A stretch of 64,000 nt of DNA from Edaphobacter sp. (lineage in GTDB: Bacteria > Acidobacteriota > Terriglobia > Terriglobales > Acidobacteriaceae): NCBI GenBank assembly GCA_025462645.1, contig JAOAPB010000045.1, positions 62,001 through 126,000 on the forward strand. The letters run 5' to 3'. A program made the translations under genes and the position numbers. Under the pieces are notes generated by a model that worked only from the letters and a program-made list of their open reading frames with translations, searched no databases and was not told the origin of the DNA. Positions 26,569 to 32,155 of the stretch are shown piece by piece. The first letter of the stretch is position 1. Every line of letters starts with the position of its first letter.

Positions 26569-26916
26569 TTACTTGGTAAAAGAAGAGATCGCGGAAGCCT
26601 CATCGTCCTTGATGTCGAAGACGGTATAAAGCTTCGTGATCTGCAGTAGGTCGTGCACCTTCTTGGTCAGGTTCAGCAACTTCAGTTCGCCGCCGCTGTT
26701 CCGTACCGTCGTAAAGGCACTGACAAGCTCGCCGATACCCGAGCTGTCGATGTAGGTGATATCGCCCAGATTGAGCAAAATCTTGTTGGAACCTTTTGCG
26801 AGCACATCGCGAACCGCGTCGCGAATCGTTACGCTGCCTTCGCCGAGGGTAATGCGACCGCTGAGGTCCAGAATGGTGATGCCGTCCACTTGGCGAGTCT
26901 GTACTTTCATGCTCAT
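26569..26916 (-). CDS. STAS-domain anti-sigma factor antagonist
   Basis: A 115-residue single STAS domain. [16 protein letters not shown] carries the phosphorylatable serine (Ser58/Ser59) of the SpoIIAA/RsbV class. AAGGAG lies before the ATG. It follows an RsbW-like kinase by 14 bases on the same strand. The pair would form a partner-switching module, but no cognate sigma factor or phosphatase is seen in the window. Confidence 0.9.
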
Positions 26917-26930
26917 GTGTAGTCTTCTCC

Positions 26931-27482
26931 TTAAGTCCCCGGCTGTGCGGGTGTTCGATGCTTGATAAGGGTCAGTTCCGTCCCGGGGTGTAACTGCCGA
27001 AAGTGTACCTCATCCATGAAGGCGCGGATGAGAAAGATGCCGCGACCCGAGCCCCGAAGGATATTTTCCGGTGCTAATGGATCGGGAATTGTGCTTGGGT
27101 CAAGCCCTGGTCCCTGGTCTGCTATGCGGATAATCACCGAATCGGACGTCATTTCAAATGATGCAGTAATGTGCTTGGTCGTGTCGTAGGCATTCCCATG
27201 CAGGACAGCGTTCACCGCAGCCTCGCGCACCGCCATGGCGATATGCGGGATAGTGTCTTCGTCGAACCCTGCCCGCTGTGCGATTTGCTCTGCAGTTTGC
27301 TCTATCTTATTGACGCTATCTAAGGTCGAGTCAAGTGTGAAACTGACACGGCTTGTCGTTGAGTCGGCCAAAGCGGTCCTTGCATTACTCGTATGCCAGT
27401 CGTCAACGGCAGACAACAGCGATGATGGCAGTGTGCTTGTGGATGTTCGGAATGTCAAGGACGCCCGGTCTCTCTTTCTCAT
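26931..27482 (-). CDS. RsbW/SpoIIAB-like anti-sigma serine kinase
   Basis: A 183-residue HATPase_c protein. [15 protein letters not shown] is the N box, [10 protein letters not shown] the G1 box, and [16 protein letters not shown] the G2 region. The N-terminal 40 residues are Ser/Thr-rich and not conserved; an internal start is possible. It is cotranscribed with the STAS antagonist downstream. It probably phosphorylates that protein and controls an unlinked sigma factor or other partner. Confidence 0.85.
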
Positions 27483-27733
27483 CGATTCTCCATTTATCGC
27501 GCCTTTGTTACCAGCATGTCACAACCTGGACTATATCGACAGGCATGTAAAGTAACATGCGGAGACAAGGATTATCGAATGCTGACCTTTAGTCCTTGTT
27601 TTTGCTTATCGTTTTTGCTTATCGCCTCTTGCATGGAGTCACGCTGTAAAAGCCCTTCGGTTGCTGGGACGGGACAACCCATGACAAAAAGCGCAAGCAT
27701 GTAAGGTCTGATAGTGCACGGCTTAAGCCAGTT

Positions 27734-29005
27734 ATGACGAAGCATGCAAATCAAAAGACGAGCGTCGCCGCCTTGATGGGAACAGCTGTCATCGATGCGA
27801 AGGGAACTGCAGTCGGCCATGTGCGCGAGTTTGTCGTCGCACCGGCGCTGGATGCCTCCCATGTCCATGGTCTCGTCATTAAGCTTGTCTCCGCCAGGCG
27901 AGGCGACAAGTTCTCTCTTGTCCTTGCGACAGACATCCAGCTCACCCCAGACTGCGAGATGCAGTTACGCGAGAGCGCTCGTCCCTCCATCCTGCCCGAC
28001 GACGAGACCTATCTGTTTCTTGAGCGCGATCTTCTCGACCAGCAGATCATCGACGTCCATGGACGCAAAGTAGTACGCGTCAATGATGTAAATCTAATAT
28101 GGGAGCCATTGGTTGAAGATAAGGAAGACCTCTCGCTTCGCATCGCCGAGGTAGAGGTTGGTCTCCGCGGAGCAGTCCGGCGCCTTCTGAAGGGTTTGCC
28201 GATGACGACCATAGATAGCCTTGCTACGCGCTTCAATCCTAGCGTCATTCCTTGGGATTTCGTCGACCTCATCGACCCCTCACGTCGTGTCCACCTCAAA
28301 GTCGATCAGGACCGCCTCTCTCAGATGCACCCCTCCGACATCGCCGACATTCTTGAGGAGCTGGCTCCACTCGAGCGCCAGGCTCTCTTCCAGAGCCTCA
28401 ATGAGGAGGTCGCCGCCGAGGCCCTTGAAGAGATCAAACCTAAGATGCAGCAGTCGCTTATCGAATCCCTCGACTCTGAGCAAGTTGCCGGCATCGTGGA
28501 GGAGATGGATCCCGGGGCCGCCGCCGATCTCCTCGCCGAATTACCCGATGAGCGCTCCGAGGCCATCCTCGATGAGATGGACCCGGAAGAGCGCCAGGAG
28601 GTCGAAGAGCTCCTCGAGTTCTCCGGAGACTCCGCCGCCGGCCGTATGACTACCGAATACATCGCTCTGCCAGCCACGGCTACAGTAGCCCAGGTCATCG
28701 ATGCACTCCACGGGTTTGAGGGAGACATCGAAACCATCACCGACATCTACCTCCTCGACGAAGAGGAAAAGATCACCAGCCTCATCCCTCTCGTCCGGCT
28801 TATCCTTGCAGCTCCTCACGCCGCGCTATCCGACCTTCCGCACGGCCATCTCGTATGCTGCGACACAAACGCCAACGGTCGCAAGGTAGCCGAGCTCTTT
28901 GACAAATACAACCTGCGCTCTCTTCCTGTCGTCGATCAGGAAAAACATCTGGTAGGCGTCGTCCACGCCGAACAAGTCATCGCCCTCCTCCGCTCCAACC
29001 GCTAA
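27734..29005 (+). CDS. Soluble PRC-barrel/MgtE-N/CBS protein without the MgtE channel
   Basis: A 423-residue protein with three regions. A PRC-barrel-like N-terminus (about 10-80) begins VAALMGTAVIDAKGTAVG. The MgtE_N superhelix (about 195-305) has MHPSDIADILEELAPLERQALF, PGAAADLLAELPDE and ILDEMDPEERQEV. Tandem CBS domains (about 308-423) run from AAGRMTTEYIALPATATVAQV to LRSLPVVDQEKHLVGVV. No membrane helices are present, so this is the sensory half of an MgtE magnesium channel alone. An NRAMP-type transporter lies two genes downstream. It probably senses a divalent ion and gates or regulates a separate carrier. Confidence 0.85.
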   Translation: MTKHANQKTSVAALMGTAVIDAKGTAVGHVREFVVAPALDASHVHGLVIKLVSARRGDKFSLVLATDIQLTPDCEMQLRESARPSILPDDETYLFLERDLLDQQIIDVHGRKVVRVNDVNLIWEPLVEDKEDLSLRIAEVEVGLRGAVRRLLKGLPMTTIDSLATRFNPSVIPWDFVDLIDPSRRVHLKVDQDRLSQMHPSDIADILEELAPLERQALFQSLNEEVAAEALEEIKPKMQQSLIESLDSEQVAGIVEEMDPGAAADLLAELPDERSEAILDEMDPEERQEVEELLEFSGDSAAGRMTTEYIALPATATVAQVIDALHGFEGDIETITDIYLLDEEEKITSLIPLVRLILAAPHAALSDLPHGHLVCCDTNANGRKVAELFDKYNLRSLPVVDQEKHLVGVVHAEQVIALLRSNR

Positions 29006-29065
29006 ATCCTGTTGCGCTCTCGCCTTTTGCTGTTTCTGAGAGGCCTCCGCGATAATCAAAGACGA

Positions 29066-30118
29066 ATGAAGATCCTCTACGCTGCAGGCCTCTCCCCCAA
29101 CGACTCGTCCCTCTACCGCCTCTGGGCATTGGAGCGGCTAGGTCATCAGGTTATCCCCTTCAACGCGTACGAGTACCTTCCCCACAACCCACTCCTGCGC
29201 AAGATCGTCTTCCGTCTCTCCGCAGGTCCCGCGGTCAATCGTCTCAACCACGATCTCCTCCGCGTCGCCGAATCCGAGAAGCCTGATCTCCTCTGGACCG
29301 ACAAGCTCCTCTGGATGAGACCCAAGACGCTCGACCGCCTCCGAGCCATGGGCATCGCTACTGTCAGCTACATGATTGACAACCCCTTCGGCCCCCGTCA
29401 GGACCCAGGCTGGCGGCTCTACATGAAGGACATTCCCCACTACGACCTCCACGTCGTCCAGCGCGACAAGAATATCGCCGACTATCGCAGCCACGGAGCC
29501 CGCGACGTCATCAAGATACAGACTGCCTACGAGCCCACCATTCACTTTCCTCCCCCAGCAGGCTGGACCGACCGGAACCGCAATCGCGACGTCTCCTTCA
29601 TAGGCACCCCGTACGACGATCGCGCAGCCACACTCGATAACCTGTCGAAGCTGAACGGGTTTCAGGTGGCTATATCCGGCAATAGCCGCTCATGGGAGCG
29701 CGCCCTCTCACCCGAAGCCTTCACGCGCCTCTACCGCGAAGGCGAGCTTTACCAGCAGCAATATCGCGAAGCCATCTGGCGCTCAAAGATCAATCTCAGC
29801 TTCATTACCCGCTCTAATCAAGACGAATTCGTCCACAAGAGCTTTGAGATCGCCGGCTGTGGAGGCTTTCTCCTCGCCGAGCGCTCAGATGGACACCTGC
29901 AGCGCTTCCGTGAAGGTGAGGAGGCGGTCTTCTTCTCCACCTACGACGAATGCGTCGAAAAAATCTCTCGATATCTTCCCGACGCAGCTGCCCGGACCCG
30001 TATCGCCGCTGCAGGCCAGGCCAGAGCCCTCCGCGATGGCTACCACAACGACCATCAGGTTAGCCTGATCGTCGAACGCGCCGCCAAAATTGTGCAGAAG
30101 ACAAGGCCAGCTAGGTAA
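29066..30118 (+). CDS. CgeB-like glycosyltransferase family protein
   Basis: A 350-residue protein. The N-terminal half has MKILYAAGLSPNDSSLYRLWALERLGH and later SYMIDNPFGPRQDPGW. The C-terminal half has FVHKSFEIAGCGGFLLAE and VFFSTYDECVEKI, the Glyco_trans_1_2/CgeB pattern. ATG 29066 fits the family start better than the in-frame 29012. It lies between the MgtE-N/CBS gene (60 bases upstream) and the NRAMP gene. It may be only a neighbour in that cluster. The sugar acceptor is unknown. Confidence 0.72.
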   Translation: MKILYAAGLSPNDSSLYRLWALERLGHQVIPFNAYEYLPHNPLLRKIVFRLSAGPAVNRLNHDLLRVAESEKPDLLWTDKLLWMRPKTLDRLRAMGIATVSYMIDNPFGPRQDPGWRLYMKDIPHYDLHVVQRDKNIADYRSHGARDVIKIQTAYEPTIHFPPPAGWTDRNRNRDVSFIGTPYDDRAATLDNLSKLNGFQVAISGNSRSWERALSPEAFTRLYREGELYQQQYREAIWRSKINLSFITRSNQDEFVHKSFEIAGCGGFLLAERSDGHLQRFREGEEAVFFSTYDECVEKISRYLPDAAARTRIAAAGQARALRDGYHNDHQVSLIVERAAKIVQKTRPAR

Positions 30119-30186
30119 AACCTCACACCTACCTCTCCTTTCTCACGCTATCTTTCCGTAGGAACGCTATAAAAGAGCTTTTTCCA

Positions 30187-30238
30187 GTAAGCTATTTTAA
30201 ATGAATGGCTTACAAGCGAGCATCCCTCGTAAGCTATT
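30187..30238 (+). promoter_or_regulatory. Repeats in the NRAMP leader region
   Basis: GTAAGCTATT occurs at 30187-30196 and 30229-30238, and GCTTAC at 30208-30213 is inverted to both. They lie 110-165 bases before the NRAMP start. They could be a metal-regulator operator or part of a structured leader. No known metal riboswitch core is recognised. Confidence 0.35.
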
Positions 30239-30349
30239 GCAGGAACATAACTTGCAACTACTGCCTTGGGATAAGTAGCGGGTGCGATCGAGTTAGCCTG
30301 AAAAAGCGAGCTGATGCCCTCTTCCGACATCAATACAAAGGAACCAGCA

Positions 30350-31600
30350 ATGACGGTGTGGCGCACGTGGAGAACCCGGCTTATTTTGTTCTTCGCCGTC
30401 CTTGGCCCCGGCTTTATCACCGCAAACGTGGACAACGATGCCGGGGGTATTCTCACCTACTCCCAGGCGGGAGCGCAGTTCGGCTACACGCTTCTCTGGA
30501 CGATGATCCCCATCACCTTGGCGCTCATCGTCGTCCAGGAGATGTGTGCTCGTATGGGGGCTGTTACCGGCAAAGGCCTCAGCGATCTCATTCGCGAGGA
30601 GTTCGGTCTTCGCATCACTTTTGTCGTAATGATCCTGCTGGTCATCGTCAACTTCGGCAACGTCATCGCCGAGTTCTCCGGCATCGCCGGCAGTATGCAA
30701 CTCTTCCATGTCAGCAAGTACATCAGCGTACCGCTTTGTGCTTTTATTGTCTGGATACTCGTCGTCAAAGGCGACTACAAGAGCGTCGAAAAGGTCTTTC
30801 TCATAGCCAGCGTCTTCTACATCGCCTACATCATCGCAGGCGTGCTCAGCAGGCCCGACTGGCACCTGGCCCTCGTCCAGACGGTAAAGATCCCAACACG
30901 CCACGTCTGGAGCGACAAGACCTACGTCTACATGGTCGTTGGCGTCATCGGAACAACGATTACTCCCTGGATGCAGTTCTACCTGCAATCCTCCATCGTG
31001 GAGAAGGGAATTACTGTCCGCCAATACAAGCACTCCCGATGGGACGTCATTGTAGGCTCCATCTTCACGGATATCGTCGCCTGGTTCATCGTAGTCGCCT
31101 GTGCCGCCACCCTCTACACCCATGGCATCCGCAACATCGCCGACCCATCGGACGCCGCCGGAGCCATGAAGCCCCTGGCTGGCGACTACGCCTTCATCCT
31201 CTTCGCCGCCGGCCTCTTCAATGCCTCGCTCTTTGCAGCCTCCATCCTGCCCCTGTCTACCGCCTACACCGTCTGCGAGGGCCTGGGCTTCGAGAGTGGA
31301 CTCGACAAGTCGTTTAAAGAAGCGAAGTTCTTCTACTGGTTCTATAGCCTATTACTGGCTGCCGGAGCAGCCGTAGTCCTCATTCCCAACTTCCCGCTGG
31401 TCAAGTTCAGCATTCTGTCGCAGGTATTGAACGGCGTCCTTCTGCCAATCGTCCTTATCTTCATGCTCCGGCTCATCAACAAGCACGACCTGATGGGAAA
31501 GTACACTAACTCCCACTGGTTCAACATCATCGCATGGCTCACAGCCGGTATTGTGATAGCACTGTCGGCTATATTGCTATGGAATGGTCTACACGGCTGA
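30350..31600 (+). CDS. Atypical NRAMP-family divalent cation transporter
   Basis: A 416-residue protein with about 11 membrane helices. ATG 30350 has AAAGGAA and is preferred over ATG 30314. The family fold is clear: FFAVLGPGFITANVDNDAGG in helix 1 and VQEMCARMGAVTGKGLSDLIRE after helix 2. The helix 1 motif DPGN of manganese/iron NRAMPs is replaced by DNDAGG (28-33). The helix 6 MPH motif is replaced by TPWM (205-208), so the sulphur ligand is not in its usual place. This suggests a non-Mn/Fe substrate, perhaps magnesium. The nearby MgtE-N/CBS gene supports that reading. Confidence 0.85.
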   Translation: MTVWRTWRTRLILFFAVLGPGFITANVDNDAGGILTYSQAGAQFGYTLLWTMIPITLALIVVQEMCARMGAVTGKGLSDLIREEFGLRITFVVMILLVIVNFGNVIAEFSGIAGSMQLFHVSKYISVPLCAFIVWILVVKGDYKSVEKVFLIASVFYIAYIIAGVLSRPDWHLALVQTVKIPTRHVWSDKTYVYMVVGVIGTTITPWMQFYLQSSIVEKGITVRQYKHSRWDVIVGSIFTDIVAWFIVVACAATLYTHGIRNIADPSDAAGAMKPLAGDYAFILFAAGLFNASLFAASILPLSTAYTVCEGLGFESGLDKSFKEAKFFYWFYSLLLAAGAAVVLIPNFPLVKFSILSQVLNGVLLPIVLIFMLRLINKHDLMGKYTNSHWFNIIAWLTAGIVIALSAILLWNGLHG

Positions 31601-31636
31601 TGCAGGGAAGGGTATCGAAGCGGAGAAGTGGTTAGC

Positions 31637-32155
31637 TTAAAGCAGCTTTCCCTCCGACAGATCCCGGATCAGGCCAAGGTCTGCGGCAAGGAAATCGTAG
31701 TTCGGCAAAGTTGCCAGCGGAGCCCACCGTATCTCATTGAAAATCCGGTTCTCCAACTCCCCATTGAACTCATGCACGACAAAGAACTGCAGATCGATGG
31801 ACCCGCCATTCCGGTATTTATGCCGAACCTGGGCCACTTGCCGGCCTATGACTGCCGTAATCCCCAGTTCTTCGTTCAATTCACGCGCCAACGCGTCTTC
31901 CGGAGTCTCTCCTGGTTCGATCTTGCCACCGGGAAACTCCCACTTCAAGCTCATGGGCTGATCCGGCTTGCGCTGGCAGATCAGCACCTCAACCCCGGAC
32001 CCGGCTTCGCCAGCCGCTTCTCGCAGGATGAGCGCCGCCACCACAAGCCGCAGAGGCTTGAGAGCCGCTACATCGATATGTTGGTCCAACTTGCGAATGG
32101 TCTCTTTCACCTGACTACAGTTTAGACTCCAACTGCACGTCAACGGCTTCACCAT
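31637..32155 (-). CDS. MutT-like Nudix hydrolase
   Basis: A protein of up to 172 residues with a full Nudix box: GGKIEPGETPEDALARELNE followed by ELGI. MSLKWEFPGGK is typical of the MutT (8-oxo-dGTP) subgroup. The first 35 residues are poorly conserved, and the true start may be later (for example a GTG coding VKETIRK). It starts four bases after the end of the HAD gene, so the two are an operon. The exact nucleotide substrate is not proven. Confidence 0.85.
   Translation of the reverse strand: MVKPLTCSWSLNCSQVKETIRKLDQHIDVAALKPLRLVVAALILREAAGEAGSGVEVLICQRKPDQPMSLKWEFPGGKIEPGETPEDALARELNEELGITAVIGRQVAQVRHKYRNGGSIDLQFFVVHEFNGELENRIFNEIRWAPLATLPNYDFLAADLGLIRDLSEGKLL

Follow-up and report, generated by a model that had tools for sequence, protein, structure and literature searches.

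A channel-less MgtE-type protein accompanies an NRMT-type NRAMP carrier in Edaphobacter and other Acidobacteriota

Introduction

The closest described relatives of the system considered here are the NrmT proteins of the NRAMP family. According to Shin et al. 2014 (PMC4072509), most NrmT members adjoin a gene homologous to the cytoplasmic domain of MgtE, and feedback regulation by this MgtE-like fragment was proposed, with metal-chaperone activity named as an alternative. In the same text, clostridial NrmT proteins rescued the growth of a Mg2+-importer mutant without importing Mn2+, the pairing is also given for the Ca_c0685 operon of Clostridium acetobutylicum, and the Acidobacterium capsulatum pair ACP_2976/ACP_2977 was assayed in Bacillus subtilis. 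A carrier of this kind with a solved structure, EleNRMT of Eggerthella lenta (7qia), transports both Mg2+ and Mn2+, the latter being taken up in proteoliposomes (PMC8806188). Here we analyze such a pair in Edaphobacter sp. (assembly GCA_025462645.1), in a stretch of 64,000 nucleotides, hereafter the window, that lies on contig JAOAPB010000045.1 (contig C47 in our labels for contigs, genomes, and loci) of a 5.96 Mb draft genome. The pair consists of a gene for an MgtE-type protein of 423 amino acids, hereafter the partner (27734..29005, plus strand, as are all features below unless stated), and a gene for an NRAMP carrier of 416 amino acids (30350..31600; the longest frame starts at 30314), with a glycosyltransferase gene between them.

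An earlier reading of the window made from its letters alone (the sequence-only reading) had considered a separate MgtE-type sensor gating such a carrier to be a new arrangement, which is superseded by the 2014 description and its feedback proposal. The pairing is real, conserved, and already published, and the window holds a further member. No later work on the MgtE-like partner was found in the part of the open-licence PubMed Central (PMC) literature that was covered. What we add are counts of co-occurrence and linkage in Acidobacteriota, an inverse distribution relative to the MgtE channel, and a residue-level account of Mg2+ site loss, which together make the function of the fragment, left open in 2014, directly testable. 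We propose, with a probability of roughly 0.55, that the Edaphobacter pair is a carrier for Mg2+, and probably also for Mn2+, together with a dedicated regulatory or assembly subunit.

Results

The partner occurs almost exclusively with the carrier

Both proteins served as queries against 149 Acidobacteriota genomes. Genomes were counted as NRMT genomes (n = 44) if they encoded a carrier scoring more than 200 bits, a threshold set after the table had been seen, with the addition of one carrier cut at a contig end; a partner was counted if its match included the N-terminal part, i.e., started before residue 100. The channel-less partner was found in 41/44 NRMT genomes and in 0/105 of the others. 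When families were scored by the state of at least half of their genomes, it was present in 14 of 16 NRMT families and in none of 47 others. The three exceptions are G136, which is 67 percent complete and has a truncated gene, and G009 and G095, which sit on a very long tree branch and may not be true NRMTs. Linkage, which the sequence-only reading had suggested counting, is conserved: the two genes are at most 5.6 kb apart in 33/44 NRMT genomes, always on the same strand (33/33), with the partner first in 23 and the carrier first in 10. In the remainder, the genes are on different contigs (7), are 199 kb apart (1), or lack a partner (3). Both co-occurrence and linkage are far above the expectation for independent genes. 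Among the named loci, which are the best 80 of at least 590 encoding a relative, a same-strand partner lies upstream in 53, and in 35 of the 52 for which at least 6.9 kb of upstream sequence is covered.

Near-perfect co-occurrence and linkage in both gene orders are the reasons for considering the partner a dedicated subunit of the carrier. The two genes could instead be chance neighbors or passengers with no functional link, which would accommodate the unrelated third gene that separates them in the genus and their separation in some relatives. With the 41/44 versus 0/105 distribution, linkage on one strand in both orders, and the pairing published for Clostridium as well (PMC4072509), that explanation is very improbable.

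The carrier has the sequence signature of NRMT proteins

Scanned from 30314, the carrier matches the Pfam Nramp family (PF01566) with 331 bits. Among proteins of solved structure, EleNRMT is the best match (375 bits) and MntH the next (108 bits), these being pairwise scores and not positions in a tree that includes EleNRMT. In the NRMT signature (PMC8806188), DxxG takes the place of DxxN in the first transmembrane segment (TM1), and TxxA/T that of A/CxxM in TM6. In an alignment of 20 of 30 carrier loci (A1), the carrier has D30-A-G-G33 in TM1 (30437..30448) and T202-T-I-T205 followed by P-W in TM6 (30953..30964), and by this sequence evidence it belongs to the NRMT type. The sequence-only reading of an NRAMP protein related to Mg2+ transporters and devoid of Mn/Fe motifs is upheld, since DAGG stands for DPGN, TTITPW stands for the MPH motif, and the Met ligand is absent; the MntH model PRK00701 scores 158.6 bits against a cut-off of 430. 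Its further point, that the sulfur ligand favoring manganese and iron is gone, does not exclude Mn2+ transport, as EleNRMT shares the signature and transports Mn2+ too (PMC8806188). The signature neither proves Mg2+ transport nor excludes Mn2+ transport.

The Edaphobacter genome also encodes a canonical MntH (L001), with DPGN in TM1 and A-T-V-M-P-H in TM6. A third, divergent NRAMP protein (L003, G000:C88:5299-6390) has DDDCSA in TM1 and 29 percent identity to the window carrier, and its nearest solved structure is EleNRMT (154 bits). The window carrier is 88 percent identical to its relative in Edaphobacter lichenicola, 87 percent to that of Acidobacteriaceae KBS 89, and 85 percent to that of E. 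modestus. Of 250 sampled genomes of the family, 249 gave an NRAMP hit when searched with the carrier, canonical MntH included. A natural fusion of NRAMP and MgtE was considered for the long frames at L166-L169 and L171 and rejected, as they encode canonical MntH with a C-terminal extension. These MntH proteins of about 640-655 amino acids (e.g., L166:1344-3275 and L169:2171-4090; also L167, L168, and L171) come from several Acidobacteriota, and in L166 and L169 Pfam identifies the extension as a universal stress protein (Usp) domain.

Locus L184 (genome G191), which we take to be the A. capsulatum ATCC 51196 pair, lies at about 3.45 Mb. Its carrier shares 70 percent identity with the window carrier and has EleNRMT as best match (355 bits); its TM1 loop reads D-P-N-G. 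The neighboring genes are the STAS, HATPase, NUDIX, and HAD genes of the window, and no glycosyltransferase match was found there. We examined 140 carrier translations, duplicate loci included, of which 17 gave no match to the loop, being mis-framed, having a long leader, or truly lacking the motif; DPNG was found in 8 of the other 123. In a carrier tree of 132 rows, 123 of them different (8 were dropped for length), the 8 DPNG rows form one branch (Shimodaira-Hasegawa-like approximate likelihood ratio test, SH-aLRT, 99), separate from the Edaphobacter/Granulicella/Terriglobus group that contains the window carrier (support 94), and both are inside a larger group (support 100). Two records titled Rhodanobacteraceae (L097) and Bifidobacterium breve (L136) group inside Acidobacteriota in the tree and are probably mislabelled bins.

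The partner retains the MgtE cytosolic fold and has lost most tested Mg2+ ligands

Pfam identifies MgtE_N at residues 198-297 of the partner (28325..28624; 101.7 bits) and CBS at residues 366-419; the CBS pair covers about residues 300-421 (28631..28996). The NCBIfam mgtE model aligns over positions 25-253 of 450 only, with 152.9 bits (below the cut-off of 232.75), so the channel half is missing, and a hydropathy scan found one marginal segment versus 3-6 in 19 channel-bearing MgtEs. The partner is a soluble MgtE_N and CBS protein without a channel, as the sequence-only reading had stated. The MgtE transmembrane domain (PF01769) had no match anywhere in the Edaphobacter genome. An AlphaFold model built from an alignment of 19 of 30 partner loci (A2) has a mean predicted local distance difference test (pLDDT) score of 83.3 and a predicted template modeling (pTM) score of 0.46. 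In Foldseek it matches MgtE cytosolic domains at 1.9-2.8 Å over about 230 columns, and the archaeal CdpB1/CdpB2 complex (8qzo) over 191-197 columns with a root-mean-square deviation (rmsd) of 7.8-12.2 Å. The output for the latter does not give the aligned query range, and its placing on the N-terminal part is ours. CdpB proteins are PRC barrels. Because of this match and a Pfam PRC match at residues 14-49 that is below the curated cut-off, the N-terminal part (about residues 1-190; 27734..28303) appears to be PRC-barrel-like, probably with two barrels. Nine residues in it are invariant in 19/19 sequences: D102, Q104, D107, V114, V116, D118, R149, R150, and W174.

The site mutants of Thermus thermophilus MgtE (TtMgtE) in PMC5882242 affect E258 (Mg2) and D259 (Mg3) of the plug helix, D91/D247 (Mg4), D226/D250 (Mg5), D95 (Mg6), and E59 (Mg7). 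We compared the partner with TtMgtE at these mutated residues, each site having further ligands. The partner ends about four residues past TtMgtE position 252, before plug-helix residues 258 and 259. At Mg4 it has G261 for D91 and Q414 for D247, and at Mg5 it has N393 for D226 and A417 for D250, exactly as in the D226N/D250A mutant, which does not shut in response to Mg2+ (PMC5882242). The Mg6 and Mg7 residues are present as D265 (D95) and E229 (E59); scored on the mutated MgtE residues alone, 2/6 cytosolic Mg2+ sites are kept. The ATP site of MgtE (PMC5529423) includes the side chains of Y170, R187, D188, N203, and F227, with V207 contributing its main chain. In the partner these five side chains are replaced by D337, V354, R355, H370, and L394, and only the main-chain contact V207 is still a valine (V374).

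To assess conservation, we collected 92 partner rows, 90 of which were long enough to use (duplicate loci occur among them), and retrieved 20 channel-bearing MgtEs from the phylum, of which all but one were aligned. At Mg5, the D250 position is Asp in 0/90 partners (Glu in 6) versus 18/19 channels, and the D226 position in 2/90 versus 10/19. At Mg4, Asp is found in 45/90 versus 18/19 at D247 and in 39/90 versus 18/19 at D91. The D95 position of Mg6 is Asp in 87/90 partners versus 9/19 channels, and the E59 position of Mg7 is acidic in 81/90 versus 18/19. Judged from these alignments, the Mg5 pair is lost across the whole partner sample and Mg4 in about half of it, mainly on the window side of its family. 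The better retention of Mg6 in partners than in channels argues against simple decay. Of the 51 named partners, those lying within 500 bp of the carrier are 27/28 of those with both Mg4 residues, 2/2 of those with one, and 5/21 of those with neither; the pattern tracks clades and does not amount to an independent test.

Because most of the tested Mg2+ residues are gone, a Mg2+-gated partner as the sequence-only reading drew it is not supported. The folds of the magnesium-sensing parts it named are present, and the partner is indeed a near-obligate companion of the carrier; what it lacks, relative to a Mg2+ sensor of the MgtE type, is the plug helix together with the ligands of Mg4 and Mg5. An MgtE_N/CBS protein is not automatically a magnesium sensor. 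The conserved N-terminal part, kept while the Mg5 ligands were lost, would suit a scaffold or chaperone that uses the PRC-like part for membrane insertion or localization of the carrier and senses nothing, and a metal chaperone was among the alternatives named by Shin et al. (PMC4072509). We consider this role doubtful: the retention of D95 and of an acidic residue at E59 hints at N-domain metal binding, and in B. subtilis the A. capsulatum carrier was functional even when its partner was absent (PMC4072509).

The MgtE channel is scarce where the carrier is present

An MgtE channel was found in 7/44 NRMT genomes versus 79/105 others (odds ratio 0.06, p 1.9e-11), where one of the 79 hits did not reach the curated cut-off. 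The corresponding family counts are 4/16 versus 41/47 (p 7.9e-6). None of CorA, the MgtE channel, and MgtA (over cut-off) was found in 12/44 NRMT genomes; these 12 include 7 of the 15 genomes of the window family, all of which have NRMT. CorA is present in 5/8 genus genomes of the phylum sample, with no match in the other 7 family genomes there. On this distribution, the carrier has plausibly taken over from the MgtE channel. A more specific scenario, in which an NRAMP-fold carrier replaced the channel, the MgtE-type gate was kept as a separate obligate subunit, and that gate was then de-tuned in the window lineage (the D226N/D250A letters, loss of Mg4) so as to read another signal or act constitutively, is one that we offer only tentatively.

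The glycosyltransferase gene is probably a lineage-specific insertion

The gene between the pair (29012..30118, with a likely start at 29066) encodes a Glyco_trans_1_2 glycosyltransferase (PF13524, 97.8 bits). Partner and carrier are separated by no more than 500 bp in 34/53 named loci and by less than 500 bp in 23/33 linked pairs of the phylum sample; the short-gap loci include L184 and those Bryobacterales loci that show a partner. A glycosyltransferase homolog lies 3' of the partner gene in Edaphobacter, some Granulicella, Terriglobus roseus, and near kin, which amounts to 12/80 named loci and to 8/8 genus genomes of the phylum sample, the window included. It is lacking in L086, whose carrier is 86 percent identical, and in G061, where 199 kb lie between partner and carrier, it has remained with the partner. 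The gene is best read as a lineage-specific insertion, an inserted cassette or what remains of one, and not as part of the ancestral pair. In L195:6265-10538 and L188:6311-8890, the two loci scanned with Pfam, genes for a GMC oxidoreductase and an aldo/keto reductase come after the glycosyltransferase gene, all of them between the partner and carrier genes, and the L195 insert holds a further protein of 523 amino acids without a Pfam match.

Neighboring genes and control regions

Genes for a STAS protein and a HATPase (26569-27482, by Pfam) are divergent from the partner gene, and such genes adjoin the partner gene in many relatives too. A promoter scan of 27400-31800 gave 0 promoter-like sites, and a terminator scan of the same interval gave 4 terminator-like sites versus 3.1 expected. 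When 14 stretches upstream of the carrier gene were aligned, no conserved block was found apart from the gene start.

Discussion

In the system that we propose, the carrier would import Mg2+, with Mn2+ probably a second substrate, and the soluble partner would be its dedicated regulatory or assembly subunit. The partner would go back to a set-up that joined an MgtE-type cytosolic gate to a carrier with a different fold, in genomes mostly without the MgtE channel, and the glycosyltransferase gene would have been inserted later. In the window lineage it probably cannot gate in the MgtE fashion, the plug helix, the tested Mg4/Mg5 ligands, and the ATP-site side chains being gone. Any metal response must therefore use the remaining Mg6/Mg7 sites of the N domain or the PRC-like part. 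Our data establish which genes are present, the families to which their sequences belong, how they co-occur, and which residues have changed; the substrate, the binding of the two proteins to each other, and the mode of control are our suggestions.

Several results weigh against this proposal. The p values for co-occurrence and for the importers ignore shared descent, the pair is apart in 8/41 partner-bearing genomes, and 17 of the 52 named loci with a full upstream flank show no partner there. CorA has no association with NRMT (25/44 versus 65/105, p 0.59), MgtA over cut-off is positively associated (10/44 versus 7/105, p 0.009), and the Edaphobacter genome has a CorA gene of its own (G000:C115:1202-2065). 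The absence of all three other importers proves little, since it is also seen in six of the 105 genomes without NRMT, 3 of which are 64-77 percent complete. The M-box (RF00380) had no match in the window, in the rest of the genome, or in any of the 149 Acidobacteriota genomes; M-box control marks some NRMT members only and is not defining for the whole group. EcoDMT given NRMT residues gained no Mg2+ transport (PMC8806188). The A. capsulatum carrier rescued the Mg2+-importer mutant only at low millimolar Mg2+ (PMC4072509), a partial rescue that in itself counts in favor of Mg2+ transport; it fully rescued a Mn2+ mutant, and co-expression of its partner did not improve the Mg2+ rescue.

The A. 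capsulatum findings would fit a carrier that is mainly a Mn2+ (transition-metal) importer, with a partner that responds to Mn2+ or to some other signal; Shin et al. made this suggestion for that species. The L184 carrier, 70 percent identical and in the same neighborhood, brings this close to the window, and the eroded Mg2+-sensing residues of the partner and the lack of an M-box point the same way. The L184 carrier is, however, in the DPNG clade, whereas the window carrier has DAGG like EleNRMT. Since the metal loop is altered in that clade, the Mn2+ result for A. capsulatum is not simply transferable and should not be extended to all acidobacterial NRMTs, although the difference does not show Mg2+ transport by the window carrier. 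The Edaphobacter genome already has a canonical MntH, and NRMT is anticorrelated with the MgtE channel. We therefore consider a mainly Mn2+-importing carrier rather unlikely, and prefer a Mg2+ carrier with Mn2+ as probable second substrate and a dedicated subunit.

Comparison with described systems

Canonical MntH shares PF01566 with the window carrier, which lacks the DPGN and MPH motifs and the Met ligand. EleNRMT shares the NRAMP family, DxxG in TM1, and the Trp after the Pro; its TM6 motif is TxxA rather than TxxT, and the window carrier is known here from its sequence. The cytosolic domain of TtMgtE (2yvy, 2yvx) has the MgtE_N and CBS fold of the partner (rmsd 1.9-2.2 Å, about 230 columns). 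The partner differs from it in having no plug helix or channel, in an added N-terminal PRC-like region, and in the loss of the tested Mg2 to Mg5 ligands and of the ATP-site side chains. The Ca_c0685 operon of C. acetobutylicum has an M-box, unlike the window. Relative to the A. capsulatum pair, the window has a glycosyltransferase gene between the two genes and DAGG instead of DPNG in TM1. With these differences, NrmT and its MgtE-like fragment (ACP_2976/ACP_2977) are the same pair as that of the window, and at L184 they have the same STAS, HATPase, NUDIX, and HAD neighbors.

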